From assembly GCA_031291715.1 (NCBI GenBank), contig JARLIN010000056.1:1-36401 (forward strand): a stretch of 36,401 bases of DNA, in the 5' to 3' direction. Under the pieces are notes generated by a model. That model saw only the letters and a list, made by a program, of their open reading frames with translations, searched no databases and was not told the DNA's origin. A program made the position numbers and the translations under genes. The DNA is from Rhodopila sp. (GTDB lineage: Bacteria; Pseudomonadota; Alphaproteobacteria; Acetobacterales; Acetobacteraceae). Shown in pieces: positions 5,999-31,894 of this stretch (the first letter of the stretch is position 1; each line of letters starts with the position of its first letter).

Positions 5999-6760
5999 TC
6001 AGCCCGACTGCCCGCCAGTCACATCGATCGTTAGTCCCGTAACAAAATCCGCGTCCGACGAAGCAAGGAAACAAATTACCTTCGCCTGGTCGGACGCCTC
6101 GGCGACCCGCCGCAGCGGTGTGTTCTCGATCTGCGCCGACTGAGCCTCCGGTGACCGCTGGTTCCAATGTGGCCTGATCCGTTCCGTCAGTGTCAGGCTG
6201 GGCGCGATCGCATTGATATTGATTCCGAATGGTCCCAGTTCGAACGACAGCTTGCGCGTGAACGCGATGATGCCGCCCTTCGCCGCCGCATAGGCACTCC
6301 CGCTGGCGACACTCATGCCACGCCCGGCAATGGATGCGAGATTGACGATCTTGCCCGATTTTTGCCGTTTCATCACCGGCACGACCGCATGGGTGAAAAG
6401 AAATGTCCCATCCAGGTTGAACGCGATCACCCGCTGCCAGTCATCCAGGGAGTGCTCCTCCACCATCGCCGATGGCTTGGCGATGATCGTGCTGCCACCA
6501 ACGGCATTGACCAGGATATCAATCCGCCCGAATTCCTTCACCGTATTGGCGACGACCTCATCTACCTGCCCCTGATCCAGCGCGTTGCACAGCCTTCCAT
6601 GCGCCTGGCTCCCGAGCGCGGCCACCGCCGCATCCAGCCGTTCCGAGTGGTTATCCACACAGACCACCACCGCACCTTCCCGCGCCATGATCTCGGCCGT
6701 CGCGCGGCCGATTCCATTCGCCGCCGCTGTGATCAGTGCGACCTTGCCCTTGAAGCGCAT
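5999..6760 (-). CDS. SDR family NAD(P)-dependent oxidoreductase
   Basis: A 253-residue classical short-chain dehydrogenase. The cofactor motif TAAANGIG (residues 11-18) varies the usual TGxxxGxG by having Ala for the first Gly. NLASIAG supplies the catalytic Ser region and YAAAK the Tyr/Lys pair. The C-terminus VTGLTIDVTGGQSG is typical. The start at 6760 follows GGGAGG at good spacing. It is the last gene of a four-gene minus-strand operon, 15 bases behind an LLM oxidoreductase, which suggests it oxidises or reduces a hydroxy/keto product made by those enzymes. Confidence 0.92.
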   Translation of the reverse strand: MRFKGKVALITAAANGIGRATAEIMAREGAVVVCVDNHSERLDAAVAALGSQAHGRLCNALDQGQVDEVVANTVKEFGRIDILVNAVGGSTIIAKPSAMVEEHSLDDWQRVIAFNLDGTFLFTHAVVPVMKRQKSGKIVNLASIAGRGMSVASGSAYAAAKGGIIAFTRKLSFELGPFGININAIAPSLTLTERIRPHWNQRSPEAQSAQIENTPLRRVAEASDQAKVICFLASSDADFVTGLTIDVTGGQSG

Positions 6761-6775
6761 TGTTTTCCTCCCGTT

Positions 6776-9150: not shown

Positions 9151-9162
9151 CGCGCTTTCTCC

Positions 9163-10395: not shown

Positions 10396-10518
10396 CGACT
10401 TTCCCCCTCAAGATCGCTTTCCTGGACGCTTGCAGACCCCCCTTGCAGCGTCAAGGTTGCGCCGCCCCGGCCGGTCGCCTAGCCTGATCGGAACAATAAA
10501 CCAAAGGGGAGACGGACC

Positions 10519-11676: not shown

Positions 11677-11740
11677 CTCCAACTCGCCATCTCCGGGCGA
11701 AGACCTGGGGATCCCCACAAACACTGGTGTGTAGACGGGT

Positions 11741-11761
11741 GCCCGGGTCAAGCCCGGGCAG
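11741..11761. terminator. GC-rich perfect hairpin between convergent genes
   Basis: TGCCCGGG and CCCGGGCA form perfect 8-base arms around a TCAAG loop. It lies between the stops of the beta-propeller gene (11676) and the SDR gene (11778), where a two-way terminator would be expected. There is no T-run, so it could equally be a dispersed palindrome. Confidence 0.5.
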
Positions 11762-11777
11762 GACGAAATAGCCCCCC

Positions 11778-12524
11778 CTACAGCAACTGCCCCCCATCCA
11801 CCACGATCGTCTGCCCGGTCACCCACGACGCGAGCGGGGAGGCCAGGAACATCACCACATTCGCCACTTCCTCCGGCGTACCCAGCCGGCCGAACGGGAT
11901 CGAGTTCAATACGGCCCCATATAGCTTCGGGTTATCCGTCTTCCGCCGGTCCCAGACACCGCCGGGAAACTCGATCGATCCGGGTGCGATCCCGTTCACC
12001 CTGATCCCGCTGCGCGCGTACATCGCCGCCTGCGTGTTGGTGTAATGGATCACCGCCGCCTTGATCGCCCCGTATGGAGGCTGCCTCGCCGCCGCCCGCA
12101 ATGCGGAAATCGAGGAGGTGTTGACCACACTCCCCTTCGACGCCTTCAGGAACGGCAACGCCGCCTGAGTCGCGTGCACGATCGCCATCATGTCGATCGC
12201 CAGACTGGCCATCCAGGCGGCCTCGTCATCCGCCGATCCGAACGCCGACGCATTGTTCACCAGCACGTCGACCCCACCCAGCGCCGCCGCCGCCTCAGCG
12301 ATATAGGCCTCGATCGCCTCCGCATTCCCCAGATCGACCGACGCCGCATGCGCCTTATGGCCGTGCGCCGCGATCTCGGCTCTCGTCTTCTCCAGCGCCT
12401 CCGCGCCACGCGCGCAAATCGAAACGTCGGCGCCGCTGGCAGCCAGGCCGAGAGCGATGGCACGTCCGATGCCGCGACTACCACCACAGATGATGGCCTT
12501 GCGGCCGGCGAAGTCGATGTTCAT
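11778..12524 (-). CDS. SDR family oxidoreductase
   Basis: A 248-residue classical SDR. The cofactor loop reads CGGSRGIG (residues 13-20), the catalytic Ser lies in NTSSISA, and the Tyr/Lys pair is YGAIK. The C-terminus VTGQTIVVDGGQLL is typical of 3-ketoacyl-reductase-like members. Its ATG overlaps the stop of the upstream carboxypeptidase gene as ATGA, and GGGAGG sits just upstream. The two genes therefore form an operon, though a cytosolic SDR with a secreted peptidase is an odd functional pair. Confidence 0.92.
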   Translation of the reverse strand: MNIDFAGRKAIICGGSRGIGRAIALGLAASGADVSICARGAEALEKTRAEIAAHGHKAHAASVDLGNAEAIEAYIAEAAAALGGVDVLVNNASAFGSADDEAAWMASLAIDMMAIVHATQAALPFLKASKGSVVNTSSISALRAAARQPPYGAIKAAVIHYTNTQAAMYARSGIRVNGIAPGSIEFPGGVWDRRKTDNPKLYGAVLNSIPFGRLGTPEEVANVVMFLASPLASWVTGQTIVVDGGQLL

Positions 12525-14014
12525 CGCGTTCCTCCCGTTGCGGTTGCCGTATCGAACACCGCTTTGGCGTCATCGCGCAACGCGGCCCGCGACGAATCAC
12601 CAAAATAGAACATGTGCCCACCCGGATAGGCCCGCAGCTCGATCGGTGCCGCGCCATCCAGCGCGGGCAGCATCCGCAGCATACGCGCCGTGCCGAAATA
12701 CGGCGTGCGCAGGTCGAACAGCCCATGCGCGATCAGCACACGCATATGCGGATCGACAGATCGTGCCGCCTGCAGCGCGCTCAGCGACTCCGGCCTGCCC
12801 ATCCCGTGGCCCCAGTCCCAGGCCTCGAACGCGGCATCGTTCGACAGGTGGTAAACCAGGTCCGGCCGCCAGTTCAGCTTGTCGGCATAGACCGCCAGCA
12901 TCGCGCTGGTTACCGGCGCGGCGAACCCGTCCAGCACCGGATCTGGGAACTGGCTGGACAATTGCCGAGGCGTCGGATTCGGACGCATGATCGTTCCGTC
13001 GTAGACACTGCCGACCCGGCCCGAAACCAGTGACTGCTGAAACACGCGCGCGTCCAATCGTCCGCGCATCCGGCGCACCAACGCCGGATCGAGCCCGGTC
13101 AGGCTGGCGACCCGCGCCGTCAGCCGGTCAATTGCCGTCGCATCCTGTTCGCCACGCAGCATATCAACCAAATAATCGCCGGCGGCATATGCCTCGACAT
13201 CCGCCATGTCGGTCCGCGCGACCGGCCCGCGCTGCGCGCGAGCCACCGCGACCTCCGACGGCAGCAGGTCGGCCCAGCTCAGCGGATCGGCGAAACCGCT
13301 CTCGTCGTGCGAGTCGAGCAGCGGCGACAGCAGCACCAGACCGCTGATGCCGACGCCTTCATCCGCTTGCAGCTTGCGCGCCAGCCGAGGGCCGCGGAAC
13401 CCGCCATAGCTTTCCCCCACGATGTATTTCGGCGACACGATCCGGCCGCTGTGGTCCAGCCAGCGGCGGATCACTTCCGCCAGCGTGTCGATATCGCCGC
13501 CGACGGACCATAGCCGCCGGCGCGCGTCGGCGTCCGTTGCCAGGATTCGGGAGTAGCCCGTGCCCGGCGGATCGATGAACACCAGGTCGGTGAAACCCAA
13601 CCAGGTTTCGGCATTCGGAACCGGCACCGCCGGCGCCGATGGACCATCCGTCCCCGGGTCGAGCCTGACCCGCCAGGGACCGATGGCACCCATCTGCAGC
13701 CAGGCGGAGGCCATTCCCGGCCCGCCATTGAACACGAACGTCACCGGTCGTGTAGCTACATCGGCACCCTCGGCCTGGTAGGCGACGAAGGCGATATCCG
13801 CCAGAGGTGCGTCCTTACCGTCCCGCAACCGGATACTGCCCGCAGTTGCAGTGAATCGCAGGATGCGTCCCGGCAGGTCCAACACCTGATGGGTCGTGAC
13901 ATCCGCCGGCAAATGCATGACCTCCGGCTCGTGCGGCGTATCGGCCCGCTGGGCATGGGCCGAACCGATGAGAACCCACGCCAGCCCGACAAACGCGAGA
14001 AAAACCTGTTTCAT
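12521..14014 (-). CDS. Secreted S10 family serine carboxypeptidase
   Basis: A 497-residue alpha/beta-hydrolase with a Sec signal peptide (MKQVFLAFVGLAWVLIG, then SAHA, cleavage near residue 21). Family marks are FVFNGGPGMASAW (oxyanion region), FIDPPGTGYS, the nucleophile elbow GESYGG with Ser202, an Asp in GLFDLRTPYFGT near 420, and PGGHMF with His467. S10 enzymes remove C-terminal residues from peptides; bacterial homologues of this length are exported. Two TTACGTTACA direct repeats lie directly upstream of the start and may be an operator. The gene overlaps the downstream SDR start by 4 bases. Confidence 0.92.
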   Translation of the reverse strand: MKQVFLAFVGLAWVLIGSAHAQRADTPHEPEVMHLPADVTTHQVLDLPGRILRFTATAGSIRLRDGKDAPLADIAFVAYQAEGADVATRPVTFVFNGGPGMASAWLQMGAIGPWRVRLDPGTDGPSAPAVPVPNAETWLGFTDLVFIDPPGTGYSRILATDADARRRLWSVGGDIDTLAEVIRRWLDHSGRIVSPKYIVGESYGGFRGPRLARKLQADEGVGISGLVLLSPLLDSHDESGFADPLSWADLLPSEVAVARAQRGPVARTDMADVEAYAAGDYLVDMLRGEQDATAIDRLTARVASLTGLDPALVRRMRGRLDARVFQQSLVSGRVGSVYDGTIMRPNPTPRQLSSQFPDPVLDGFAAPVTSAMLAVYADKLNWRPDLVYHLSNDAAFEAWDWGHGMGRPESLSALQAARSVDPHMRVLIAHGLFDLRTPYFGTARMLRMLPALDGAAPIELRAYPGGHMFYFGDSSRAALRDDAKAVFDTATATGGTR

Positions 14015-18724: not shown

Positions 18725-18962
18725 CAGGGCCTGGACTCGGGAAAGGGCAGGCGTCGGGAAGAAAATTTGCACATTATCAATATTATTGCTTGGCTCGCCG
18801 CCGCTGATGTCACCTGTTGATGACAGAACCGTGATATCGGCCGACTCGCCGCAAGTCCACCGTCTACGCGCGTTATGCGCGCTTTTTGTTACGCGGCCGC
18901 CCTTCCATCCAGCGCGTTCCCGTGGCCTCCTGTCCCGGCTGTTGGAACGGGAGCGGATCATC

Positions 18963-19754
18963 ATGCACACCGAATGGCGCAAGCTGCGGGCGGATGAGTT
19001 GCGGGAACAGGCGCGCCGGGACGCGATCGTCATCCTGGCCGTGGCGTCGCTGGAACAGCACGGCCCGCATCTGCCGGTCGAGGTCGATTCGATGCTCGGG
19101 GAAACCGTCGCCGCACGAACGGCGGAGAAGGTGCTGGCGAAAGGGCGGCCGGTGGTGGTGCTGCCGGTGCTTTGGACCGGATTGTCCGAACATCACATGA
19201 GCTTCGGCGGCACTATCACGCTGGACAATGCGGCTTTCGCGGCACTTATCGAGGGCGTGGTGCGATCAGTCCTACGGCACGGGTTCCGGCGGATCGTCCT
19301 GCTGAACGCGCATGGCGGGAACGAGAACGCACTGCGGACGATCACTGACGACCTGACGCCGAAGCTGGGCGTGCCGATCGTACAGCTCACCTACTGGTTT
19401 GCGGCGGCAGTGGCGATCGCCAAGATCCTGGAGACTCAGGGCGGCTTGCAGCACGCGTGCGAGGCCGAGACCGCGATGATGATGGCGGTGCGGCCCGACC
19501 TCGTCGCTGTTGACCGGATCCCACTGGCGAAAGCCAACACCACACCGGACCTGTCCGACGTGGTCGGCGGCGGGGTTTACATATGGCGCAGCATCGGCAG
19601 CCGGTCGGGATCAGGCGTGATCGGCAATCCGGAAGCGGCGACGGCGGAGAAGGGGGAGCGTCTGTTCGACGCGATCTCCTCCGCGCTGGCGGACAAGCTG
19701 TGCAATCCGGAACTGTGGGAATTGCCGTGGACCTCGGAGACGGTGCAAGGTTAG
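18963..19754 (+). CDS. Creatininase family protein
   Basis: A 263-residue protein of the creatininase/FAPy-deformylase/mycofactocin MftE superfamily of metal-dependent amidohydrolases. The metal-binding motif SLEQHGPHLPVEVDS has Glu31 and His33; LNAHGGNEN near residue 115 and CEAETAMMMA near 165 complete the site. The start at 18963 follows GGGAG at 9 bases; an ORF extension to 18786 lacks the family pattern. It is divergent from the PDZ gene across 238 bases that include an AT-rich patch (18770-18790) suited to a promoter. Substrate unknown: these enzymes open cyclic amides or cleave formamides and peptides. Confidence 0.9.
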   Translation: MHTEWRKLRADELREQARRDAIVILAVASLEQHGPHLPVEVDSMLGETVAARTAEKVLAKGRPVVVLPVLWTGLSEHHMSFGGTITLDNAAFAALIEGVVRSVLRHGFRRIVLLNAHGGNENALRTITDDLTPKLGVPIVQLTYWFAAAVAIAKILETQGGLQHACEAETAMMMAVRPDLVAVDRIPLAKANTTPDLSDVVGGGVYIWRSIGSRSGSGVIGNPEAATAEKGERLFDAISSALADKLCNPELWELPWTSETVQG

Positions 19755-19784
19755 CGGGTTTCGGCTCGAACCGCGCCCCTGTGT

Positions 19785-19824
19785 CATGGCCGTGCCTGGC
19801 GCGGCCGCCCACGACTTGCGGTGC
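19785..19824. repeat. Left copy of a 40-bp inverted repeat
   Basis: This stretch, starting CATGGCCGTGCCTGGC, matches the reverse complement of 22626-22665 at 38 of 40 positions (differences at repeat positions 23 and 30). The two copies flank the molybdenum hydroxylase genes. It also shares the TCATGGCCG core of the smaller intergenic palindromes. Confidence 0.85.
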
Positions 19825-19927
19825 CAAACGCGCCAAAGCCGTGGCTCACCGGACCAGGCCCGATGATGACAGAATTGGGCAAACAGGCGGCGATGCCATG
19901 ATGATGCAGCCTGACGAGGGGGGAACG

Positions 19928-20395
19928 ATGAATATAAACCTGACCGTCAACGGACACGACGCCAGCCTGGACGTGGAACCGACCACGCCGCTGCTAGATG
20001 TGCTGCGCAACCACCTCGACCTGAAAGGTTCTCGCTACGGCTGCGGCCTGGAGCAATGCGGCACCTGCATGGTGCTGATCGACGGCGAACCGGCATATTC
20101 CTGCGCCCGCGAAATTGACTCCGTCTCCGGCCGCTCGATCACAACGATCGAAGGCCTCGGCACCCAGGACGATCCCCATCCGTTGCAGCGCGCTTTCCTG
20201 GAGGAGCAGGCCGGCCAGTGCGGCTACTGCCTGTCCGGCATCCTGATCAGCGCCAAGGCGCTGCTCGACCATAATCCCAAACCGACCCGCGCCGACATCG
20301 TGGCAGCACTGGACAAACATCTCTGCCGCTGCGGCACGCATACGCGGATCATCGCCGCCGTTCAGAAAGCCGCCAGCATGGGAGCACCGGCATGA
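19928..20395 (+). CDS. (2Fe-2S)-binding subunit of a molybdenum hydroxylase
   Basis: A 155-residue electron-transfer subunit like IorA, NicA or CoxS. The N-terminal plant-type ferredoxin cluster is bound by Cys39, 44, 47 and 59 (CGLEQCGTC). The C-terminal helical domain binds the second cluster by Cys98, 101, 133 and 135 (CGYC and CRC). The start at 19928 follows GAGGGGGG; a possible extension (MMMQPDEGGT) is less well placed. Its stop overlaps the start of the large subunit as ATGA, so the two subunits are made together. It passes electrons from the Mo centre to an external acceptor. Confidence 0.95.
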   Translation: MNINLTVNGHDASLDVEPTTPLLDVLRNHLDLKGSRYGCGLEQCGTCMVLIDGEPAYSCAREIDSVSGRSITTIEGLGTQDDPHPLQRAFLEEQAGQCGYCLSGILISAKALLDHNPKPTRADIVAALDKHLCRCGTHTRIIAAVQKAASMGAPA

Positions 20396-22500
20396 GCGAC
20401 ACCCTGCCGCTGAGCATCCTGAACAATCGGCGGATGGAAAAGTGGCTCCGTTTCCAGCCGGACCGTACTGTCAAACTGGCCGTCGGCAAGGTGGAGATCG
20501 GCCAGGGCGTGCTGACCGCCCTGTCGCAGATCGCGGCCGAGGAGCTCGACGTGGCGATCGACCGCATCGCCATCCTGTCCGGCGATACCGCAGATGCGCC
20601 GGATGAAGGCTCGACCAGTTCCAGCCAGTCGATCGAGGTTTCCGGCCGTTCCGTGCGCTTGGTCAGCGCGGAACTGCGTGCGCGGGTGCTGAGCCGGCTG
20701 GCGCAGCGGCTGAACTGTGCGCCAGAGGAATTGTCGGTGGAGGATGGCGCCTTCCTTCAGGATGGTAACCCAACCGGTCACGACTATTGGAGTTTCTCCG
20801 CCCCGGAGGATTTCGCCGCCGAGATCGAGGGATCCGCGATGCCGAAGGCACCCGCGACCTACAAGGTAGTGGGCCAGCCGGTGCCACGGCGCGATCTGAT
20901 CGCCAAGGTGACAGGCGCGGCGTTCATCCACGACATCGTCCGGCCAGACATGCTGCATGCGCGGGTGCTGCGTCAGCCCTCGCGCGGTGCTCGACTGGAA
21001 GCGCTGAATGAGGCGGCGATCCGGAAGGCGGCCGGCAGCGCCATCCGGATCGCACGCGTTGGGAATTTCGTGGCGTTCGTGGGAACGGACGAAACCGCCG
21101 TCCAGCGGGCGGCGGCGGCCGCGCCGGCCCATGCAAAATGGACCGGCGTGCGACAGCTTCGCCCGGCCCAGCAGGAGGCGGCGTGGTTTCGCGATCAACC
21201 GGCAGACGACCGCCACATCGGCGATCCGGGTCCGCCGGCGGAAACCGGGATCATCGTCAGCGAGACATATTCCCGGCCGTTTGTCGCGCACGCGGCCCTG
21301 GCGCCGTCCTGTGGGCTGGCGGAATACCGCGATGGGCATCTCTCGGTCTGGTCGCACACCCAGGGCGTCTATCCGCTGCGCAACAGTATTGCAGACATTC
21401 TGGGGCTTCGGCGCGACCAGGTGACGGTGCGGCACGCCCATGGGGCCGGCTGCTACGGCCACAACGGCGCCGACGATGCCGCTCTGGATGCCGCGATCAT
21501 CGCCATGCAGATCCCGGATCACTGCATCCGCGTGCAGTGGCGGCGCGAGGAGGAGTTTGGCTTCGAGCCCGTCAGCACGGCGCACATGACGCGGCTCCGC
21601 GCTTCGCTGGATGAAAATGGCCGTCCGGTCGATTGGACGGCCGAGGTCTGGGCTGGCTCGCACGTCCAGCGACCGGTGTTCGGCGGCACCATGCTGGCGC
21701 ATGAGGCGCTGCCGACCCCGCCGCCTCCGCCCAAGGCTAACGATCCCTCCGAGGCAAATGGCGGCGGCGGCACGCGCAATGCGTTCCCCCTGTACGACTT
21801 CCCAGCCAGGCGGGTGATCCATCATCTGGCGCTGGAAACGCCGGTGCGGACGTCGTCATTGCGCGGATTGGGGGCGCTGCCGAACGTCTATGCGCTGGAA
21901 TGCTTCATGGACGAGTTGGCCGAACGGGCCGGCGTCGATCCTGTCGCCTACCGCTTGTCGCTGCTGTCGGACCCAAGGGCGAGACGGCTGATCGAGAACG
22001 TCGCGGATCGCTGCGGTTGGGCGTCTCGGGGGCCAGTCGGCACCGGCCGGGGTCTGGGTTTGGCCTGGAGCCGCTACAAGAACAAAGCGGCATACGCGTG
22101 CGTGGCGGTCGAGTTGGACGTGGATTTGGACATTTCCCTCCGCCGGGTCTGGTGCGCCGCCGACGCCGGGCTGGTGATCAACCCGGATGGCGCACGCAAC
22201 CAGTTGGAAGGCGGGATCGTTCAGGCCGCCAGCATGACCTTGAAGGAACAGGTGACGATGGATGGCGACGGAATCACCTCGCTGGACTGGGATCGATATC
22301 CAATCATGCGATTCTCCGAGGTGCCGGAGATTGATACGGTACTGATTGATAATCCGAATCAGCCGACATTGGGTATGGGCGAATGCACATTCGGCCCCAC
22401 TGCCGCGGCAATCGGCAATGCGGTGGCGCACGCGCTGGGGGTGCGGATCAGAGACATGCCCCTGACGCGGGAGAGGATCGCGGCGGCGCTGGTGCGGTAG
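20392..22500 (+). CDS. Molybdopterin-binding large subunit, xanthine dehydrogenase family (IorB/NicB-like)
   Basis: A 702-residue catalytic subunit that would hydroxylate an aromatic N-heterocycle or aldehyde using water. Features include VGKVEIGQGVLTALSQIAAEEL near residue 25 (duplicated Mo-binding module), APATYKVVGQPVPRRDLIAKVTG near 150 (hammerhead domain start), and LGMGECTFGPTAAAIGNAV, whose Glu664 matches the catalytic base. A Pro-run and Gly-run linker (PPPPP to GGGG, residues about 443-461) interrupts the middle. No FAD subunit follows, so it belongs to the two-subunit type that reduces a cytochrome or other acceptor. The enzyme needs molybdopterin; moaD lies at 35353. Confidence 0.93.
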   Translation: MSDTLPLSILNNRRMEKWLRFQPDRTVKLAVGKVEIGQGVLTALSQIAAEELDVAIDRIAILSGDTADAPDEGSTSSSQSIEVSGRSVRLVSAELRARVLSRLAQRLNCAPEELSVEDGAFLQDGNPTGHDYWSFSAPEDFAAEIEGSAMPKAPATYKVVGQPVPRRDLIAKVTGAAFIHDIVRPDMLHARVLRQPSRGARLEALNEAAIRKAAGSAIRIARVGNFVAFVGTDETAVQRAAAAAPAHAKWTGVRQLRPAQQEAAWFRDQPADDRHIGDPGPPAETGIIVSETYSRPFVAHAALAPSCGLAEYRDGHLSVWSHTQGVYPLRNSIADILGLRRDQVTVRHAHGAGCYGHNGADDAALDAAIIAMQIPDHCIRVQWRREEEFGFEPVSTAHMTRLRASLDENGRPVDWTAEVWAGSHVQRPVFGGTMLAHEALPTPPPPPKANDPSEANGGGGTRNAFPLYDFPARRVIHHLALETPVRTSSLRGLGALPNVYALECFMDELAERAGVDPVAYRLSLLSDPRARRLIENVADRCGWASRGPVGTGRGLGLAWSRYKNKAAYACVAVELDVDLDISLRRVWCAADAGLVINPDGARNQLEGGIVQAASMTLKEQVTMDGDGITSLDWDRYPIMRFSEVPEIDTVLIDNPNQPTLGMGECTFGPTAAAIGNAVAHALGVRIRDMPLTRERIAAALVR

Positions 22501-22726: not shown

Positions 22727-23509
22727 TCAGCCCCCCTTGCGCGCCTTCAACTTCTGAATTGCCTCGTTCACCATCCGCGTCGGTTCATCCGTCTGATATG
22801 CGCGATACATGCAACGAATGCCGGCCTCGACCGCATCGTTGACCGGCATGGCCTCCCATTCGCGGATCAGTTCCTTTTGCAATCGGATCGCCTTCGGGCC
22901 GGATTCGACGATCGAACTCACCCATTCATTCAGCGCCGGGTCCAGATCCTCGGCCGGCACAACTTTCTCGACCAGGCCCCAGTCCAGCGCCGTGCGGGCA
23001 TCGATACAGTCACCCGTGTAGAGCAACAGCTTTGTCCGCCCCCAGCCGATCAGCTGCGGCAGCAGCGCGGCCTCGACCACCGACGGCAGCCCGACCTTCA
23101 CTTCCGGCATGCCGAACATCGCGTTGTCGCTGGCGATATGCATGTCGCAGGCGGCCATCACCTCCAGCCCCGCACCGAGGCAGAAGCCGTTGACGCGCGC
23201 TATCACCGGCACGGGCAGGTCGCGCAGCACCTTGCACATGCGATGGATCAGGGTCAGAAAATCGCGTGCTCGCGGCGGATTCAGTTCGCCCAGTTCGTGC
23301 AGGTTGGCGCCCCCCATGAAGGCACGATCGCCCACACCCGTAACGATCAACACGCGCAGGTCCGGATCATCCGCTAGACCTTCCACCGCCTCGATAAACG
23401 CCGTGATCTGCGCGCGGCCCAGGCAGTTCAGCCGCGCCGGATTGTTGATCGAGACGGTGGCGACGGCGCCTGGACGGTCGCGGTGCACGCGGACGGGGTG
23501 GTCACTCAT
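22727..23509 (-). CDS. Enoyl-CoA hydratase/isomerase family protein, canonical hydratase residues
   Basis: A 260-residue crotonase. Unlike the copy at 1311, both hydratase glutamates are present and 20 residues apart: Glu116 in GAGLEVMAACD and Glu136 in FGMPEVKVG. The first oxyanion segment reads AFMGGANLHEL (residues 63-73). It should hydrate a 2-enoyl-CoA in beta-oxidation or a related path. Its ATG overlaps the stop of the upstream SDR as ATGA, so it is the second gene of a two-gene operon in which the SDR could act on the 3-hydroxyacyl product. Confidence 0.93.
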   Translation of the reverse strand: MSDHPVRVHRDRPGAVATVSINNPARLNCLGRAQITAFIEAVEGLADDPDLRVLIVTGVGDRAFMGGANLHELGELNPPRARDFLTLIHRMCKVLRDLPVPVIARVNGFCLGAGLEVMAACDMHIASDNAMFGMPEVKVGLPSVVEAALLPQLIGWGRTKLLLYTGDCIDARTALDWGLVEKVVPAEDLDPALNEWVSSIVESGPKAIRLQKELIREWEAMPVNDAVEAGIRCMYRAYQTDEPTRMVNEAIQKLKARKGG

Positions 23510-24303
23510 GGTTCGTTCCTCTGATTCCAGCCGATTGGCCCTCGGAACGGCCTCATATCGGGATAGCCGCTGACTGCCCAGGCACCATCGACCAATAAGC
23601 TGGCGCCGTTGACGTAACTCGCGTCGTCGCTGGCCAGATACAGCGCGGGAGCGGCGATCTCCTCGGGTTGCGCCGGGCGCCCCATCGGAATGCGTTCCTC
23701 AAAGGCCGCCAGCGCGTCGGCGTTGTCGAAGTGGCGGCGTGTCAGAGGGGTCTGCACCAGGCCCGGCAGGATCGCGTTCACGCGGATACCGAACTCAGCG
23801 AACTCGAGCGCACCGTTGCGGGATAGCATTTCGACGCCTGCCTTGGCCGCGACGTATGCGGACCCGGCATGCATCGGTACGTGCGCATTCAGGGAGGCGA
23901 TATTGACGATGCTCCCCGTCCCCTGGCGCATCATCTGCCGCGCCTGGTGCTTCATGCCGAGGAACACGCCTTTCAGGCAGAGATCGACTGTGAAGTCCCA
24001 ATCCGCCTCAGCCAGATCGACGATGTAGCCGGCCCGGGCGCCGCCGGCGACGTTGAATGCGGCATGGACGGCACCAAAGCGGTCAACGGCGGTCGCCACC
24101 AATTCCTCGGCCGAGGCTTCCTTCGTGACGTCGCCGGCAATGCCGATGAACCCGGCGCCCAGGTCGTCGGCGACACGCAGGTCAGAGCCGACAACGTTCG
24201 CGCCCTCGGCCAGCAGCCGTTTGGTGATAGCCAGCCCGATGCCCGAAGCGGCACCGGTTACCACCGCGACTTTCCCGGCGAACCGGTCCTTTAACGCGAT
24301 CAT
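23506..24303 (-). CDS. SDR family NAD(P)-dependent oxidoreductase
   Basis: A 265-residue short-chain dehydrogenase with TGAASGIG near residues 16-23, NIASLNAHVP for the Ser region and YVAAK for the Tyr/Lys pair. The C-terminal part reads YVNGASLLVDGAWAVSGY. Two nearby ATGs compete. The one at 24303 sits 6 bases after AGGAGG and is chosen; the one at 24309 directly abuts that site and is too close. First gene of the SDR/crotonase operon. It is divergent from the large helicase gene, with only about 77 bases between starts. Confidence 0.92.
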   Translation of the reverse strand: MIALKDRFAGKVAVVTGAASGIGLAITKRLLAEGANVVGSDLRVADDLGAGFIGIAGDVTKEASAEELVATAVDRFGAVHAAFNVAGGARAGYIVDLAEADWDFTVDLCLKGVFLGMKHQARQMMRQGTGSIVNIASLNAHVPMHAGSAYVAAKAGVEMLSRNGALEFAEFGIRVNAILPGLVQTPLTRRHFDNADALAAFEERIPMGRPAQPEEIAAPALYLASDDASYVNGASLLVDGAWAVSGYPDMRPFRGPIGWNQRNEP

Positions 24304-24380
24304 CTGCATCCTCCTACGCGGCGTTAAGGGTTTGGCAACTTGTTCATGGTTCCGTGCCCGCGTTTCGATGGGAAACGTGC

Positions 24381-27284
24381 ATGGAAGTATCGGTCGGGAT
24401 CAAGGTCGCCGCGCGCGGGCTGGAGTGGGATGTCACCGAGGTCGAGCCGCTCGGTCCACAGCAACGGGTGCGCTTGGCCTGCGCCAGTGGCGATCTGGCT
24501 GGCCTGGAATGGGAGGTGCTGTATCCGGTCGAGCCGCTTGCGGTCCTGCGCACCGATCCGCGGCCCGACGAGGCGGGACCGCTTGATGCATGGCGGCGCT
24601 ACCACATCGCCCGGCTGCTCGATCAGATACCGGGTGCGCCCGCCCCGCCGGGCCGTGTGGCGATCGAGGCTTATCAACGTGTCCCGCTGCTCCGCGCTTT
24701 GGACATGGTGCGACCGAGACTGCTGCTGGCCGACGGCGTCGGCCTGGGCAAGACGATCCAGGCCGGGCTGATCGCCGCCGAACTGATCGTACGGCGGCGT
24801 GCACATCGTATCCTCATCGTCTGCCCGCCCGGCCCGCTGTTGCGGCAATGGGAGCAGGAGATGCGCGTCCGTTTCGGCCTGCGCTTCACGCCGATCATCG
24901 ACAGCGCGAGCCTGCGCGATGCGCGTCGTGGGCTGGAGCTTGGCGGCAACCCATTCGAGGCGACCGCCCTGTGCCTGACCTCGATGGATTTCGCCAAGCA
25001 GGACCGTGTGCTGGAAGAACTGGAACGCGCCCCCTGGGACCTGGTCATCATTGATGAGGCGCATCACTGCGTGGGGGAGGAAAACCAGCGCCATCGGCTG
25101 GCCGAAGTGTTGGCCCGTCGCTCCGATGGGCTGTTGTTACTGACGGCGACCCCGCATGACGGGCACGATCCGCATTTCGCCTCGTTGATGGCGCTGCTGG
25201 ACCCCAGTCTGGTCGATGGGGAGGGGCGGCTGATCGGGTTTGCGTATCGCCGTCATGTCGTGCGACGGCTGAAGTCGCATATCCGAGACCCGCGCACCGG
25301 CGGCCCGCTGTTCCGGGAGCGGATCGTCATCCCGGTCCGCGTTGATGTGACGAATGCCACGCCGGTGCGGAACTTCCATAAGGCGTTGTCGGCACTGGTC
25401 GCGCCCAGGTTACGACGGTCGCGCGACCGGGCCGGGCTGACGGATGCGCTGGCTTTCGTCAGCCTGCTGAAACGGTCGATGTCCAGTATTGCGGCTTGTC
25501 TCGCGACGCTGCGCGTGGTGGCGGAGCGCTATGGCACGGAACCGTTACGCGAAAGGCAAAGGACCTTACGGGCGTATCGTCGGAGGGTGGCCCGGTTTGG
25601 GGTGCTGGACACCGCCGAGGAAGAAGAAATCGCGGAACTGGAAGCCGAGGAAATGGCGGCTTCGCTGGCCGGCGATGCAACAGAAGAAGATTTGCGGGCG
25701 CTGATCCATCTGGGCGAAGCCGCGGCGCCGCATGATCCGAAGCTGGCGGCGCTGGCGCTGGAGATCAGGCTGATCCGGCTGACTTACCCCAGCGCAAATA
25801 TACTTGTGTATACAGAGTATGCCGACAGCCAACGCGCGGCGGTCGAGGCGTTATCGGGCATCGGCGGCACCGTCTTGACCATCAGTGGTGCCGATTCCGA
25901 TGCCGAACGGACCCGCGCGGCGGAACGTTGCTCGGAGGAGGACGGAATTGTCCTGGTCAGTACCGACTCGCTGGCCGAGGGGCTGAACCTGCATCGGCGC
26001 TGTTTCCACCTCATCCATCTCGACCTGCCGTACAACCCGAACCGCCTGGAACAACGCAACGGCCGCATCGACCGCTACGGACAGCGCAACGATCCTGAGA
26101 TCCGCTATCTGTTTCTTGCCGGCACGTTCGAGGAACGGTTGCTGCTCCGCCTGATCGCGAAATACGAGAAGGCGCGATCCTGCCTGTCATTCATGCCGAA
26201 CACGCTGGGCGTCGGCGCTGATCCCGCCAGCTTGCACGAACCGCTGTTCACGGGTTTCGCCGAGGATTTGTTCAGCGCGATGCCTCGGCTGATCCACTCA
26301 CTGGATCTTGCGGCCGAGGATACCGAAAGCGAAGCCTACCGCGACCTACTACGCGAAATCGACCGGGCGTTCCAAAGTTTCGATCACATGGCCGTCCGCC
26401 ACGGTTGGCTGTCCGGCGGGGAGACGATCGAGCCGCCGTCGTCCGAGGCCGGCGATGCCATCGACTTGCCGGCGTTCGTTGCGTCGGTGCTCGCGGCGGA
26501 TACGCACGGATACCGCGTACCGCCCGAATGGGCGCACGAGCTGAATGGGCTGTCAGGCTTCGATGCGACGCATGGCACGGTCCGGCTGACCGCCGACCGA
26601 GACCAGAGTCGCGATGCACAGGGACGGGAGGTGATGTATCCGGGCCGCTCTCATCCGCTGACCAGGCGGGCCATCGCCTCGGTGCGGACGGGGCGTGTCA
26701 GCGCGGCGAAGGCGGACAGGTTGTCCCTTCTCGTGACCTACATCGTGGAGGCCGGTCCGAGGCTGCGGAAGATCATCGCATTGCGTATTCACCCGGACGG
26801 TTCAATCTCGGAACAGCCGGATTTCCTGTCACTGGCGGAAACCGGCCTGCCCCCCGATGGTCTGTGGTGCCGGTGGTTCGCCGGTTGGGCGCCGGAGGCG
26901 ATCGCTGCCGGCAGGCTCCAGGCGCTTGCGGCCGCGGACAGGATCGCCTCCGTCTTCGCGGTCGCGCACCGGGAGCGGATCGAGCGCGATACTGTCGCCG
27001 TCCGCGCATGGTTGGAGCGACGGGCGAACGAATTATGCGGCACGGTCGCTCCCCGGATCGACGACCTGTTCGATCCCGGTCCGCCATCAAGCGATTGGCG
27101 CACATGCCCGGTGCCAGAACAACGCCTGGCCGAGTTCGCCGCCGACCCTTTTGTGGCGGCCCCACAGCGACGAGATGCGATGGATGTCCTGTCGCGCTTC
27201 CGGGCGGTCACGGCCGAGCAGCCGCCGTTGCCACCGCCAACGGTGCGTACCCTCGGCATGCTGATGCTGGTGCCGCAGACGTGA
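24381..27284 (+). CDS. SNF2-type DEAD/DEAH helicase, DrmD-like (DISARM class 1)
   Basis: A 967-residue helicase/translocase. An N-terminal small beta domain (KVAARGLEWDVTEVEPLG, then GLEWEVLYPVEPL) precedes the motor. Motor motifs are Walker A GVGLGKT (119-125), DEAH (225-228), LTATP (254-258), and motif VI QRNGRIDRYGQ (558-568) after STDSLAEGLNL. YRRHVVRRLK after the first RecA lobe is typical of DrmD and related defence helicases. The C-terminal about 350 residues have no recognised nuclease. The residue after Asp in motif I is Gly, where SNF2 proteins usually have Glu. The start at 24381 follows GGGA at 7 bases; a GTG at 24354 is possible. Its stop overlaps the methylase start (GTGA). DrmD is one of the two class 1-specific DISARM proteins; identity here is inferred from motifs and partner. 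Confidence 0.85.
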   Translation: MEVSVGIKVAARGLEWDVTEVEPLGPQQRVRLACASGDLAGLEWEVLYPVEPLAVLRTDPRPDEAGPLDAWRRYHIARLLDQIPGAPAPPGRVAIEAYQRVPLLRALDMVRPRLLLADGVGLGKTIQAGLIAAELIVRRRAHRILIVCPPGPLLRQWEQEMRVRFGLRFTPIIDSASLRDARRGLELGGNPFEATALCLTSMDFAKQDRVLEELERAPWDLVIIDEAHHCVGEENQRHRLAEVLARRSDGLLLLTATPHDGHDPHFASLMALLDPSLVDGEGRLIGFAYRRHVVRRLKSHIRDPRTGGPLFRERIVIPVRVDVTNATPVRNFHKALSALVAPRLRRSRDRAGLTDALAFVSLLKRSMSSIAACLATLRVVAERYGTEPLRERQRTLRAYRRRVARFGVLDTAEEEEIAELEAEEMAASLAGDATEEDLRALIHLGEAAAPHDPKLAALALEIRLIRLTYPSANILVYTEYADSQRAAVEALSGIGGTVLTISGADSDAERTRAAERCSEEDGIVLVSTDSLAEGLNLHRRCFHLIHLDLPYNPNRLEQRNGRIDRYGQRNDPEIRYLFLAGTFEERLLLRLIAKYEKARSCLSFMPNTLGVGADPASLHEPLFTGFAEDLFSAMPRLIHSLDLAAEDTESEAYRDLLREIDRAFQSFDHMAVRHGWLSGGETIEPPSSEAGDAIDLPAFVASVLAADTHGYRVPPEWAHELNGLSGFDATHGTVRLTADRDQSRDAQGREVMYPGRSHPLTRRAIASVRTGRVSAAKADRLSLLVTYIVEAGPRLRKIIALRIHPDGSISEQPDFLSLAETGLPPDGLWCRWFAGWAPEAIAAGRLQALAAADRIASVFAVAHRERIERDTVAVRAWLERRANELCGTVAPRIDDLFDPGPPSSDWRTCPVPEQRLAEFAADPFVAAPQRRDAMDVLSRFRAVTAEQPPLPPPTVRTLGMLMLVPQT

Positions 27285-30200
27285 CGCTCGATCTCGAGGA
27301 CTGCATCCTGGCGGGATCGGCGATAACCGCGCCGTTCCTGCGAGACGGCTTGGCCAGCGTGCTGGACTTGCCGTGCGGGATCGAACCTAGGTGGGACGAA
27401 TTGCGTGGTGCGTTGCGTCGTGGTGGGGCGCACCGTGTGCATCAGCATTTGACCACGAAGCTGGCGAGCGCCTTGGGCTACCGGCGCTTGCTGCGTCAGA
27501 ACCCGATCGCTACGCGGGAGGGACAGGAGGACGGCGGCTGGCTGTTGCAGGCGTCCAACGGCACGAGCCTTCGCGCCTGGTCCATCCCAAGCGATACGGA
27601 CCTCGATGCGCCCGAACGGTCATCGCGCGCCTATCGGTCCAGCCCCACCCGCATCGCCCAGCGCGTGCTGCTCGCAAACGGCGAGCGCGCCGGACTGCTG
27701 ACAAACGGGGATATGCTTCGGCTGTTGCTCTGCGATCCCGCACGCGCCGATAGCCACCTTTCGGTCGCGGTCAGCGGTTGGCGGCAAAATCCGCTGCCGC
27801 CGGACTCGTTTCGTGTGTTCGCGGCGTTGGCGGGCGCGGATGGGCTGCCGCGTCTGCCGGCGGTGCTGGAAGCCGCCCGGCTGCATCAGGCAAGGGTCAC
27901 CACCGAACTGCGCCGCCAGGCCAGGGAGGCGATCGTCGGCTTCATCAACGCACTGCCGAGCCGGACAGGCCTCGATCCGGCAGAGCTGTGGCACGAGGGC
28001 CTGGTGTTGGTCTATCGGCTGCTGTTCATCCTAAAGCTCGAAGGTCCGGCCGAGCCGGGCGTGGGGTTCAGCTTCGCTTCCTCGCGGTTGTGGCGCATCG
28101 CGTTGTCGCCAAATCGGGCGTTGGGTCCGCTGGTACGTCGGCATCTGGACCATGGGCACGACACCGGGCGGATGCTGGAGACGGGGCTCCGGTCCTTGTT
28201 CGCGATCTTCCGCGACGGGCTGACATGCAGCGAGTTGCACATTGCGCCCCTTGGTGGTGCGTTGTTCGGGGCAGGTACGACGCCGTTGCTCGACCGGCTC
28301 GAATGGGGCGACCGGGCGGTGGCGATCCTGCTGGATCGGTTGATCTGGATTTCCACGCACCGCGGCGAACGGGCGCGCGTGCATTATGGGTCGCTGGACG
28401 TGGAGGATCTCGGCAGCGTCTATGAGGGACTGCTGGAGCAGGAACCTGGGATCGCCACCGAACCATTGGTCCGCCTGCGGCGAGGCAAGTTGGAGGCCGT
28501 CGTTCCCGCCGGATACGAGCCTGCCGACATCGAACAAGGCCAGTTCTTCCTGCGCGCCGGCATGGCGCGGAAAGCGACCGGGTCGTTCTACACGCCGCAT
28601 GAATTCGTTCGCTTCCTGGTCCGCGAGACGTTGGACCCAAAGATCGCATCCCTGAGCCCGCCGGAGGACCCACATCCCGCCAGGCTGCTGGCGCTTAAAA
28701 TGGTCGATCCCGCCACCGGGAGCGGTCATTTCCTGGTGGAAGCCTGTCGCTATCTCGGAGAGGCACTGCTGACCGCCTGTCGGCTTTGCGACGAGCGTGG
28801 CCTGCACGACCGCATTGCCGCCCTGCCGGATCCTGACAACACCATCGCGCCGTACCTCCCCAGCCGAGGTTATTCCGAAACCCGCGCCCGCGCGATCTGC
28901 CGCCGGCTGGTCGCGGTGCATTGCCTGTATGGTTGCGATCGCAACAAGCTGGCGGTCGAACTGGCGAAACTCTCGCTGTGGCTGGAATCCTATGCGGAAG
29001 GATTGCCGCTGACGTTCCTGGATCATCGTCTGGTGCATGGCGATGCACTGACCGGGCCGTTCTTCGGATCGCTGTCGACGCTGCCGGTGACCGGCGGGCC
29101 GCTCGATCCGTTGCTGGCACACGGGGTGGCGGAACGGCTGGAGGCGAGCCTGCGCCTGGCGCGACAACTGGTGACGGAGATGAACGCGTCCATCGGCCGG
29201 GATGTGGCCGATCTGGGGATGAAACAGGCGCTCAAGGACCGATTGGACCAGGTATTGCATCCGCTGCGGCAGCTCGCGCGAGCCTGGGCAGGGGCCGCGA
29301 TGCTGCGAGACCGGGACGGGGATGATGTCTGGCTGGGCATGGCCGCCTATGTGGTGGACATGGGATCGTGGCCTGACTCTCTGACCGAACGCCAAGCCGC
29401 GCTACTGGCAGCGGGGATAGACACGGTCGCCTGGGATCTGGTCTTTCCCGAGGTATTTCCAGGCGGCTTCTCCGTTGTGCTGGGGAACCCTCCCTGGGAC
29501 GTGGTGCTACCCAACACCAAGGATTTCGTCGCGGGGTTCAATCCAGCTGTGCTGGATGCACGCACCCGCTCGGAACGAGTGGCGATCGAACAGACAGTGC
29601 TATCGCGGCCGGATATCGCCGCCGCGTTTGATTTTTACCGAGCCGGGTTCGAGCGGACGAAGCGCATCGCGCACCGGTTGTACCGGCATCAGCGCGTCGG
29701 TGTCGGCAGCGATTCAACGGCGGGTAATCTGGATCTGTTCCGCCTGTTCGCAGAACGCAACATGGATCTCGCCGCGAAGGATGGGGCGATTGGCGTGCTG
29801 ATGCCCTCTGCTTTCCATGCCAATGAAGGGACCACCGGTATCCGGCGCCTGTATCTACAGGAAGCCGCCATAACATGGTGCCTATCGTTCGAAAACCGCC
29901 GCCGCATCTTCGACATCGACAGCCGGTTCAAATTCGACCTGCTGGTAGCGCATCGCCCCGGTCCGACGGAGTCGTTACGCTGCGGCTTTTACCTCGATCG
30001 GATCGAAGACGCCGAGGATCCGGAAAAGATCATGACCTACGCGACGGAATTCCTCGAAGCATCCGGCGGGGCCAGCCTGACGCCGCTGGAACTGAGGGGA
30101 AACATCGATCTGGCTATCGCCGAAAGGCTGTTCGCGCACCCTGACCGGCTGGGCGCCTGGTGCGTGGATCGCCATATCCGCCTTGGCCGCGACCTCCACA

Positions 30201-30964
30201 TGACCGATGACGCCGGCGGCTTCAAGCGGATCGGTGCGGGCGACCTGGTTCTGCACGAGGGCAAGACATTCCACCAATACAGCGACTCCTGGGACACCAA
30301 GCCCCGCTACAGCGTCATGTCGCATGGGTTGAGGCCAGCCATTGCCGACGCCGCCCGCTATTACCGCCTGGTGTTTCGCGACATCGCCCAGGCAAATAAT
30401 GAACGGACGATGATAGCCTGCCTGGCACCGCCCGGTGTCGTGTTCGGCCACACCGCGACGGTCGAGAAAGCGCCCTGGGCGCGGGTCACCGCCGATGCGC
30501 TGGTGCTGGGCGCACTGTTCAATTCGTTTCCGTTCGACTGGCTCGTGCGGCAGAAGACGGCTACGCATCTCAGTCTGTATATACTGAACGCCCTTCCCGT
30601 CCCCCGTTTCAGCGACGCGGCGCGCCGCTTCCTGGCACACGGGGCGCTACGCCTCTCCTGCAACCATGCTGGATATGCCGCACTTTGGTGGGAGCAGGTG
30701 CGCGCCGACCAGACGCCTTTGGAGGCACACTGGGACTTGCGTGCCAGGACCGACGCGGTGGTGGCGGACGCTTATGGGCTGGATCGAGACTGCTATGACC
30801 ATGTGCTGCGTAGCTTCAACCATCGGTCCCATCCCGCTGCCGCGGCGCTCTGCCTGGCCGCGTTCGATGCGCTGAAAGCACGAGGACTGGAGGCGTTTTG
30901 CCGGCAGCACGATCCCTATTGGAACGTGCCGCTCCTTACGGCTCGAGCCGAACCGTCAGCCTGA
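27281..30964 (+). CDS. N6-adenine DNA methyltransferase, Eco57I/DrmMI-like
   Basis: A 1227-residue protein starting at GTG 27281, coupled to the helicase stop. The MTase core has GSFYTP (434-439), the AdoMet motif DPATGSGHF (476-484), a YGCDRNKLAVELAKLSLW segment, VHGDALTG, and catalytic NPPW (736-739). A long helical insert separates motif I from motif IV. The part after about residue 880 (FENRRRIFDIDSRFKFDLLV and onward) looks like a target-recognition region as in type IIG, PglX and DrmMI enzymes. Residues 1-400 end a segment ERAGLLTNGDMLRLL that resembles the tail of an HsdR/type IIG nuclease fold, but no ExK catalytic pair is seen. It probably methylates adenine at a specific site, marking self DNA. 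It ends 9 bases inside the convergent glycosyltransferase gene. Confidence 0.88.
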   Translation: MTLDLEDCILAGSAITAPFLRDGLASVLDLPCGIEPRWDELRGALRRGGAHRVHQHLTTKLASALGYRRLLRQNPIATREGQEDGGWLLQASNGTSLRAWSIPSDTDLDAPERSSRAYRSSPTRIAQRVLLANGERAGLLTNGDMLRLLLCDPARADSHLSVAVSGWRQNPLPPDSFRVFAALAGADGLPRLPAVLEAARLHQARVTTELRRQAREAIVGFINALPSRTGLDPAELWHEGLVLVYRLLFILKLEGPAEPGVGFSFASSRLWRIALSPNRALGPLVRRHLDHGHDTGRMLETGLRSLFAIFRDGLTCSELHIAPLGGALFGAGTTPLLDRLEWGDRAVAILLDRLIWISTHRGERARVHYGSLDVEDLGSVYEGLLEQEPGIATEPLVRLRRGKLEAVVPAGYEPADIEQGQFFLRAGMARKATGSFYTPHEFVRFLVRETLDPKIASLSPPEDPHPARLLALKMVDPATGSGHFLVEACRYLGEALLTACRLCDERGLHDRIAALPDPDNTIAPYLPSRGYSETRARAICRRLVAVHCLYGCDRNKLAVELAKLSLWLESYAEGLPLTFLDHRLVHGDALTGPFFGSLSTLPVTGGPLDPLLAHGVAERLEASLRLARQLVTEMNASIGRDVADLGMKQALKDRLDQVLHPLRQLARAWAGAAMLRDRDGDDVWLGMAAYVVDMGSWPDSLTERQAALLAAGIDTVAWDLVFPEVFPGGFSVVLGNPPWDVVLPNTKDFVAGFNPAVLDARTRSERVAIEQTVLSRPDIAAAFDFYRAGFERTKRIAHRLYRHQRVGVGSDSTAGNLDLFRLFAERNMDLAAKDGAIGVLMPSAFHANEGTTGIRRLYLQEAAITWCLSFENRRRIFDIDSRFKFDLLVAHRPGPTESLRCGFYLDRIEDAEDPEKIMTYATEFLEASGGASLTPLELRGNIDLAIAERLFAHPDRLGAWCVDRHIRLGRDLHMTDDAGGFKRIGAGDLVLHEGKTFHQYSDSWDTKPRYSVMSHGLRPAIADAARYYRLVFRDIAQANNERTMIACLAPPGVVFGHTATVEKAPWARVTADALVLGALFNSFPFDWLVRQKTATHLSLYILNALPVPRFSDAARRFLAHGALRLSCNHAGYAALWWEQVRADQTPLEAHWDLRARTDAVVADAYGLDRDCYDHVLRSFNHRSHPAAAALCLAAFDALKARGLEAFCRQHDPYWNVPLLTARAEPSA

Positions 30965-31894
30965 CACCGTCCGCAGCAGCGCCAGCACACTGCCCACCTG
31001 CCGGTCCAGGCCGTAACGGTCCGCGACCCAATCGCGATATAGCCCCGGCCGTCCGGTCCGGATCAGCGCCACCGCATCCTCCACCGAGGCGAACAGGCAC
31101 TCCGCCGGCCACAGCCTGTCCGCACCCGGAAACCCATGCACCACCGGAAAGGCGCCCACCGCCATCGCCTCGCCGATATTCATGCCGAAGCTTTCGTACA
31201 TCGAGGTGGAGAGGATCACCCCCTTGTCGGCGTACCACGCCGAAATATCCGCCACCTGCCCCTCGAAACGCACCCCCCCTGCAAGGCCCAGTGCCGACTG
31301 CATCTGCTTCAAATACCGCGCCGTTCTCAGATCGGTGAATGCCCCGGCAACGTGGAAGCTGAACCGCGGATCAAGCTGCCGGACCCGGTGTGCGATCTGC
31401 ATCAGCAGCATTGGGTTCTTCTTCGGCTCCAGATGTCCCACCCAACCGACACGATACCGGTCCGGTGCACCGGGACGGAACCGGGCCATATCGATTCCGT
31501 TGGGAATAACCCGGATCGGCACCGCCGCGGCAATCGCGGGGAACCCAGCCTGCAGCACCTCGGTAATGTCTTCGGCCACCGTCACCAGGCACGTAACGCG
31601 GCTCCAGTCCATTTGTGCCGGATAATTCGTCTGCAACGCCTCGATCGAGTGCAGCCGGACGATACACGGCTTTCCTGGCGGCATAACGTTGCGCGTGGCC
31701 CAAACAGCATGGTCCCAGCACCACTCCAGCCAGACGATATCCGCCCAGGCTATCGCGGCAGCCAGTTCCGCACCGGGACCGGCCGTGACGAAGCGGGTCT
31801 CATGATGCTGCTCCAGCGCCGGCAGCAATGGGGCCAGGAAACTGTCTTCCCGGCCCTTGACCCGGTCGGCGAGCAGCAGGCGCGGCATGACCAT
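30956..31894 (-). CDS. Glycosyltransferase family 1/4 (GT-B) protein
   Basis: A 312-residue GT-B enzyme. The C-terminal half has the nucleotide-sugar binding pattern: RYRVGWVGHLEPKKNPMLL near residue 143 and the E-x7-E motif ESFGMNIGE at 234-242. The N-terminal half is short for GT4, so this is a compact member. The start at 31894 lies 5-6 bases after GGAGG; the ATG two codons later is less well spaced. It transfers a sugar from an activated donor to an unknown acceptor, probably for surface glycans. The nearest partner gene is the flippase at 16353. Its end overlaps the methylase end by 9 bases. Confidence 0.9.
   Translation of the reverse strand: MVMPRLLLADRVKGREDSFLAPLLPALEQHHETRFVTAGPGAELAAAIAWADIVWLEWCWDHAVWATRNVMPPGKPCIVRLHSIEALQTNYPAQMDWSRVTCLVTVAEDITEVLQAGFPAIAAAVPIRVIPNGIDMARFRPGAPDRYRVGWVGHLEPKKNPMLLMQIAHRVRQLDPRFSFHVAGAFTDLRTARYLKQMQSALGLAGGVRFEGQVADISAWYADKGVILSTSMYESFGMNIGEAMAVGAFPVVHGFPGADRLWPAECLFASVEDAVALIRTGRPGLYRDWVADRYGLDRQVGSVLALLRTVSG

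Follow-up and report, generated by a model that had tools for sequence, protein, structure and literature searches.

Helicase-methylase pairs have been described within larger anti-phage systems, namely DISARM, ARMADA and BREX-like systems. Solitary methyltransferases with a constant target are known as well, with CamA, CcrM and Dam as examples. The available text of PMC13395437 likewise describes CamA in this way. In the text of PMC12458937 available to us, ARMADA type I comprises a YprA helicase (ArmC), a BrxHII/RapA-like helicase (ArmA) and a PglX-like methyltransferase (ArmB), and defence by the ARMADA type II of E. coli needs all four genes. Here we describe a helicase-methyltransferase pair at 24381..30964 of a 36,401-nucleotide stretch of DNA from Rhodopila sp. 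(contig JARLIN010000056.1 of assembly GCA_031291715.1; the whole stretch is called the window below), which nearly all sampled members of its genus carry as a fixed part of the chromosome. The window belongs to a metagenome-assembled genome (MAG) of 6.24 Mb that is 91% complete. The parts of the pair are of known kinds; the available texts of the open-licence literature searched describe no such effector-less pair that is inherited vertically across a genus, with an earlier mention being possible.

The layout given in a preliminary description of this DNA, which was made from the letters alone, held up in coordinates and frames: an SNF2-type helicase gene of 967 codons (24381..27284, + strand) and the gene for a 1227-residue, Eco57I/PglX-like N6-adenine DNA methyltransferase (27281..30964, + strand, GTG start) are joined by a GTGA stop/start overlap (27281..27284, + strand), and both carry intact core motifs (Walker A, DEAH, motif VI, GSGHF and NPPW), which we found to be invariant or nearly so across copies. 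The helicase frame is already open from a GTG at 24354, giving a 976-residue version, but the methionine encoded by the ATG at 24381 (M10 of that version) hardly varies across 25 aligned sequences, the window's among them, and this ATG is therefore the likelier start. We compared 33 loci, from 31 genus genomes, that of the window among them, and two genomes of the sister genus, g52. Both genes are present in 30 of these, the three others (G290, G371 and G403) being on contigs that end before or inside the methyltransferase gene, and in 30/30 the two genes have the same order on one strand; with script-chosen starts, the 4-base overlap recurs in 21 of the 30 and the spacing lies between -13 and +19 bases in 29. 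In the 30th (G401), where the helicase is frameshifted, its second open piece overlaps the methyltransferase gene by 4 bases. Given this constancy of order and strand, the arrangement is more than chance. A closer look at the G401 locus (L012, 9704-12956) showed the helicase in two overlapping open frames, reflecting either a frameshift or a sequencing error.

The distribution of the pair is close to universal within the genus and very narrow outside it. The methyltransferase was found in 32/33 genus genomes, including all 23 of good quality, and a helicase orthologue (E below 1e-200) in 31/33, with G415 adding a fragment at a contig edge; the sole genus genome without either gene, G398, is 64% complete. 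Both genomes of g52 carry the pair, and among the carriers is the cultured species Rhodopila globiformis DSM 161. Twelve close loci stem from records labelled Rhodopila, Acidisphaera, Acetobacteraceae or Proteobacteria, each genome being counted once. In a sample of 397 genomes of the family, orthologues were confined to the 13 sampled genus members and two of g52; the best match in the other 382 reached 39% identity over residues 17-581, and matches of up to 46% spanned at most 176 residues. Beyond the window's own genome, a phylum sample (398 genomes, that one included) yielded eight partial matches at 35-39%. These two surveys scored the two best first-look candidates per genome. In the family survey and the searches of the 33 genus genomes, one or two stops flagged inside several matches were taken as the genes' own, since the genes read as single long frames. 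Plasmid records held one full-length relative above 40% identity, from Pseudanabaena, the others among the matches listed being at or below 35%.

Comparison with rpoB indicated that the pair has largely been inherited vertically. Trees of the helicase, the methyltransferase and rpoB were built for 24 genomes, and the permutation test used the 19 genomes with an rpoB over 1100 aa; G129, G290, G371, G399, G401, G403, G407, G408 and G409 dropped out of the comparison through the filters or for want of rpoB, and G398 and G415 lay outside it from the start. The helicase and methyltransferase trees each share 14/21 bipartitions with the rpoB tree, in the case of the helicase with no well-supported conflict, and share 16/21 with each other, with one well-supported conflict. 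In the 19-genome set, helicase and methyltransferase distances agree closely (r 0.965), and both follow rpoB in Mantel tests (r 0.54 for the helicase and 0.52 for the methyltransferase; 0/5000 permutations). With 27 other genomes of the family added, the rpoB tree placed g52 as sister to the genus (support 85) and united the 19 genus members in one group (95); this tree, like the family trees below, was built by a quick tree method. The simplest account is one gain before the genus and g52 split, with no certain loss. Selection on both genes is purifying: the ratio of nonsynonymous to synonymous rates (dN/dS) was 0.10-0.32 for both, which is a rough figure with dS approaching or exceeding 1 in several pairs, compared with 0.04-0.16 for the adjoining short-chain dehydrogenase/reductase (SDR) gene and 0.10-0.14 for the hydratase and glycosyltransferase genes. 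That the pair is inherited vertically in the whole genus is the more unusual fact about it, one which the preliminary description had no means of seeing.

To place the pair among known systems, we used trees that comprised 10 pair copies, 15 DISARM-labelled rows, nine loci of a second kind, five other helicases, the Pseudanabaena pair and RapA of E. coli. The DISARM label was based on DrmA and/or DrmB in the stretch for 10 of the 15 (L020, L073, L074, L076, L082, L084, L099, L102, L145 and L146) and on DrmD plus DrmMI matches only for the other five (L072, L080, L081, L086 and L101); L075 and L077, also DISARM-like, stayed outside the trees. Loci of the second kind have the arrangement named ARMADA type I in the available text of PMC12458937: five of the nine (L017, L019, L078, L079 and L087) have a DruE-like giant helicase, three (L148, L150 and L151) have a large DEAD/DEAH helicase annotated nearby, and L144 has an annotated DEAD/DEAH gene of about 400 codons that is cut by the end of the stretch. 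The three giant helicases that were scanned all match DruE models. In the helicase tree, the DISARM, second-kind and pair helicases form three separate groups; the 15 DISARM-type rows are one group that excludes the pair (100), the pair groups with the Pseudanabaena plasmid protein (100), and the two join the ARMADA-like rows with support 91, under a long-branch warning. The methyltransferase tree, which has 33 rows, joins the pair plus Pseudanabaena to the ARMADA-like kind (100), apart from 14 of the 15 DISARM rows (100); the 15th, L082, is the second methyltransferase of its locus. Judged from these trees, both proteins are outside the DISARM clade and form a clade of their own, nearest the ARMADA-like rows in the methyltransferase tree, and this nearness rests mainly on the methyltransferase because the helicase join falls under the long-branch warning.

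The preliminary description had called the two proteins DrmD-like and DrmMI-like, and this label is valid only in a loose sense that also covers ARMADA. The pair does share with class 1 DISARM the gene order and domain types of drmD-drmMI, genes that overlap in the Rhodococcus example too, and PADLOC ranks DrmD first for the helicase, at 354 bits and over residues 14-608 only, and DrmMI first for the methyltransferase, at 306 bits. However, a Rhodococcus class 1 DISARM control scored 1245 and 1547 bits with the same library, and the helicase reached 367 bits against the NCBI curated DrmD model, whose cut-off is 610. Moreover, the pair has NPPW as its catalytic motif, while 13 DISARM rows have NPPF (11), NPPM (1) or NPPW (1, L082); no DrmA or DrmB is near the pair, and its recognition part is not exchanged. 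From profile scores, clades and partner searches, we rejected an assignment to DISARM. With ARMADA type I, the pair shares an adjacent BrxHII/RapA-like helicase and PglX-like methyltransferase, the position as nearest group in both trees and the NPPW motif, which is present in 7/7 ARMADA-like rows. It differs in having no YprA (ArmC) homologue in the stretches around the 33 copies, in forming a separate clade beside the type I-like groups, and in its genus-wide, vertical inheritance; accordingly, ARMADA membership was rejected as well, with ARMADA kept as the nearest kind. Within ARMADA, this comparison covered type I-like loci.

The closest relative among the plasmid records is the pair of Pseudanabaena sp. 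ABRG5-3 (L015); each of its two proteins is about 42% identical to its counterpart along 98-99% of the length, and the helicases share the Walker A mark. Unlike the Rhodopila pair, it is plasmid-borne, with Phd/VapC genes between helicase and methyltransferase, and its island holds VWA, PP2C, kinase and DUF2357 genes and a DruE-like giant helicase. The VWA, PP2C and Ser/Thr kinase triad lies with AAA and DUF2357 proteins directly upstream of that pair (1407-13890); a lead to TerY-P systems that came from this island is irrelevant to the window, since such genes are missing from its flanks. Phd/VapC toxin-antitoxin genes between helicase and methyltransferase were seen in two plasmid loci, L015 (17331-18036) and L150 of Acidithiobacillus caldus (6932-7566), and a four-helix bundle gene stands in this position in L019 and L146. 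BREX offers further likenesses, in the methyltransferase fold of PglX/BrxX and in the helicase architecture of BrxHII as described in the available text of PMC12839542. BREX was nonetheless rejected, as PglZ was found in 0/33 genus genomes; the PglX models score only 16-21 bits. For the DUF499-centred (Hma/BR) systems, the window flanks contain SDR, hydratase and glycosyltransferase genes and no DUF499, which was not searched genome-wide.

The partners by which these systems are recognized are missing around the pair and rare in the genus. No homologues of DrmA, DrmB, DrmC or YprA were found in 580,695 bases around the 33 copies, in agreement with the earlier statement that no drmABC lies in the operon, nor were genes of the Pseudanabaena island found in these bases, save for a 22% exonuclease match in G051. 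Genome-wide searches were made for DrmA, DrmB, DruE and PglZ, leaving out DrmC, BrxC and DUF499. Among the 33 genus genomes, a single DrmB model matches three and a single DrmA model five (G311 weakly); a DruE model reaches E 0.001 in 12, yet does so also in 12 of 14 controls; the strong matches are those in G397, G329 and G413, and G404 has part matches. The window's own genome gave no DrmA, DrmB or PglZ match and only 19 bits for DruE, with DrmC not searched genome-wide.

A further distinction from DISARM is found in the target-recognition region of the methyltransferase (30128..30610, + strand; residues 950-1110), the limits of which we set from a beta-rich stretch of the structure model. 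Across 28 copies of the pair (378 pairs), the identity of this region is 0.93-0.97 of that of the catalytic part (bin means) at every level of divergence. By contrast, among 12 DISARM methyltransferases the region falls to 0.23-0.32 identity in four pairs with 82-89% identical helicase cores; in three of these, compared directly, identity drops sharply from about residue 700-800 to the end. The comparison dropped L082 and methyltransferase rows of up to 1000 aa (L080 and L102). Among the Acetobacteraceae DISARM methyltransferases L072, L073 and L074, and likewise L076 and L086, identity is mostly 0.7-1.0 as far as residue 700-800 or so, then 0.5, then 0.2-0.3, a pattern that we read as exchange of the target-recognition part. 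Since region identity falls in DISARM and tracks the catalytic part in the pair, DISARM in Acetobacteraceae appears to change its target and the pair seemingly does not. Clade-wide conservation and a constant recognition region, which is what we looked for as the signs of a solitary methyltransferase, were thus both found, and the likeness to CamA, CcrM and Dam extends to the lack of any nuclease partner seen and, for CamA, to a place among the top fold matches of the pair's methyltransferase. The difference is that the methyltransferase of the pair is coupled to an SNF2 motor.

Taken together, we give roughly even chances to the reading that the pair is the helicase-methylase half of an ARMADA/DISARM-like system, lacking the effector, which in the genus and g52 is now a vertically inherited standing module with an epigenetic or genome-maintenance role and not one of restriction. 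In such a module, the methyltransferase, with its conserved motifs, would add N6-methyladenine at one constant chromosomal sequence; the translocase may be made with it in fixed proportion from a coupled message, as the gene overlap suggests, and would work on the same DNA by delivering the methyltransferase, clearing proteins away or surveying for DNA that lacks the mark. With neither a nuclease nor a YprA effector, the pair would act as a standing chromosomal methylation module. This reading is supported by the need for all four genes in ARMADA type II (PMC12458937, available text) together with the rarity of partners in the genus. We surmise more tentatively, and at clearly less than even chances, that an immune pair underwent a single domestication, in an ancestor shared by the two genera, and that the SNF2 motor controls where or when one constant sequence is methylated, outside restriction and BREX.

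Several points weigh against the standing-module reading. The methyltransferase tree has one well-supported conflict with that of rpoB, and it places the Pseudanabaena plasmid protein inside the clade, beside g52 (99), so that a transfer out of or into the clade is needed. Both pair genes evolve faster than the adjoining SDR gene, and the C-terminal part of the helicase is fast-evolving, either of which could mean conflict with phages. The G401 helicase is frameshifted next to an intact methyltransferase frame. Seven ARMADA-like methyltransferases also retain their recognition region (ratio 1.11 over 11 pairs and 0.96 for one), and because of this a constant region is by itself no proof of a housekeeping role. 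The stretches around the 33 copies are 4 to 36 kb long and were searched for partners with single sequences, and four of the 33 loci (G290, G371, G403 and G408) lie on contigs that stop at the pair or within it, leaving the downstream side unseen; most genomes examined are MAGs. Finally, solitary methyltransferases are not known to have an SNF2 motor.

The main rival is a two-gene defence in which the methyltransferase marks self and the translocase senses unmarked phage DNA, blocking or stripping it with no nuclease, a system that the whole genus would retain. Relatives of known function are anti-phage genes (PMC12458937, available text), both genes are kept with intact ATPase and methylase motifs, and the fast-evolving helicase C-terminus would fit as well. 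We regard this as a possible reading, at odds below even, as all four genes are needed in the E. coli ARMADA type II of the same source while in the genus DrmA, DrmB and DruE are absent or rare and PglZ is absent. In addition, the pair is almost never missing, and an SDR and/or hydratase gene lies upstream in 25/33 loci, unlike what is seen with a mobile island. Searches with the methyltransferase gave only two partial matches in phage records (31-34% identity) and none in a viral-contig scan sensitive to close relatives only; on these methyltransferase searches, spread by viruses was rejected.

It seems improbable that the pair acts with a third protein encoded elsewhere, as a split DISARM or ARMADA. 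DrmA, DrmB or DruE-like genes do occur elsewhere in G413, G404, G414, G329 and G397. However, complete loci bring their own helicase and methyltransferase, as best seen in G413, where two DISARM loci and an ARMADA type I-like trio (L099, L102 and L162; contigs C45, C172 and C4), each with its own helicase and methyltransferase, stand apart from the pair. Such loci are found in few genomes and the pair in nearly all; the window genome itself has no DrmA or DrmB match and 19 bits for DruE, although one gene could be missed at 91% completeness.

Still less probable, in our estimate, is a type IIG-like restriction-modification enzyme with an accessory helicase, in which the N-terminal region of the methyltransferase would cut DNA. 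The highest score with the type IIG models of PADLOC is 168 bits, and BpuSI and DrdV are among the Foldseek matches. The best fold matches, at low whole-chain TM-scores, are PglX/BrxX and CamA, and the target-recognition region is constant. Inspected by eye, the N-terminal region shows no conserved D...(D/E)xK across the clade, the model being of low confidence in part; the region (27458..27805, + strand) possibly has a degenerate nuclease-type fold. A decaying DISARM remnant, as the preliminary description had entertained, is the least credible reading of all: by PADLOC names the gene content is DISARM minus drmABC and one of the 33 loci has a frameshifted helicase, but both proteins lie outside the DISARM clade, dN/dS is 0.10-0.32, the motifs are conserved and the methyltransferase is in 32/33 genomes.

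As to the proteins themselves, the helicase has the Pfam domains SNF2-rel_dom and Helicase_C, and RapA is its best solved relative by sequence and by fold, the Foldseek match being obtained with whole-chain TM-scores of only 0.22-0.30 from a model of mean pLDDT 72 and pTM 0.40. It probably translocates along double-stranded DNA in the manner of RapA, as its family would predict. Residues 17-66 (24402..24551, + strand) form strands of a small N-terminal beta domain in the model, which may be Tudor-like by analogy with BrxHII and RapA. Walker A (DGVGLGKTIQAG; 24732..24767, + strand) contains DGVGLGKT in 33/33 copies and in Pseudanabaena, and the G after the first D marks the clade, with D at this position in the DISARM and ARMADA-like rows (DDVG) and E in RapA. 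The Walker B or DEAH box, IIDEAHH (25047..25067, + strand), has DEAHH in 33/33 copies, and each position of helicase motif VI (NPNRLEQRNGRIDRYGQ; 26034..26084, + strand) is kept in 31 or 32 of 32 rows. Identity within the clade is 0.75-0.76 in the motor vs. 0.33 in the C-terminal alpha+beta domain (26694..27281, + strand), which in the model has long helices, one of them at 846-895, and a last strand (963-974). The methyltransferase matches the Eco57I domain of Pfam, and N6-adenine is its likely product, judging from family. Its model covers residues 1-1195 (pLDDT 72, pTM 0.60; low confidence in part). SAM-binding motif I (VDPATGSGHFLVEA; 28703..28744, + strand; SAM, S-adenosylmethionine) has GSGHF in 30/30 rows, and the catalytic motif IV, NPPW (29486..29497, + strand), is present in 29/29 rows reaching it.

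The neighbours, assigned by Pfam and given as context only, bear out the SDR and glycosyltransferase of the preliminary description: the divergent SDR gene lies upstream (23506..24309, - strand), with an enoyl-CoA hydratase gene beyond it (22727..23509, - strand), and a convergent group-1 glycosyltransferase gene downstream (30956..31894, - strand) overlaps the 3' end of the methyltransferase gene by 9 bases. The SDR gene adjoins the pair in 22/33 loci and the hydratase is there without SDR in three more; the remaining eight include the two of g52 and one (G414) with only 403 bases upstream. The glycosyltransferase gene is next downstream in 8/33. The G+C content of the pair equals that of the whole window, no tRNA genes were found in the window, and a scan for promoters and terminators gave a yield no better than chance. 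Pfam domains of genes farther out in the window include molybdopterin-binding and Fer2 domains, a P450 and an AMP-binding enzyme. Three + strand frames at 18786-22500 resemble a molybdenum hydroxylase set of the CO dehydrogenase type; a scan of the second and third showed Fer2 and molybdopterin-binding domains.

The near-universal presence and apparent vertical inheritance of the pair suggest that the chromosome has permanently taken in part of an immune system. The pair thereby offers a natural experiment, with a helicase-methylase half lacking the effector in a genus where some members separately carry DISARM or ARMADA-like loci. It bears on whether methylation may need a motor, whether such a pair can exclude phages alone, and whether immune genes may turn into epigenetic regulators, a question that is open to experiment through the cultured Rhodopila globiformis DSM 161.

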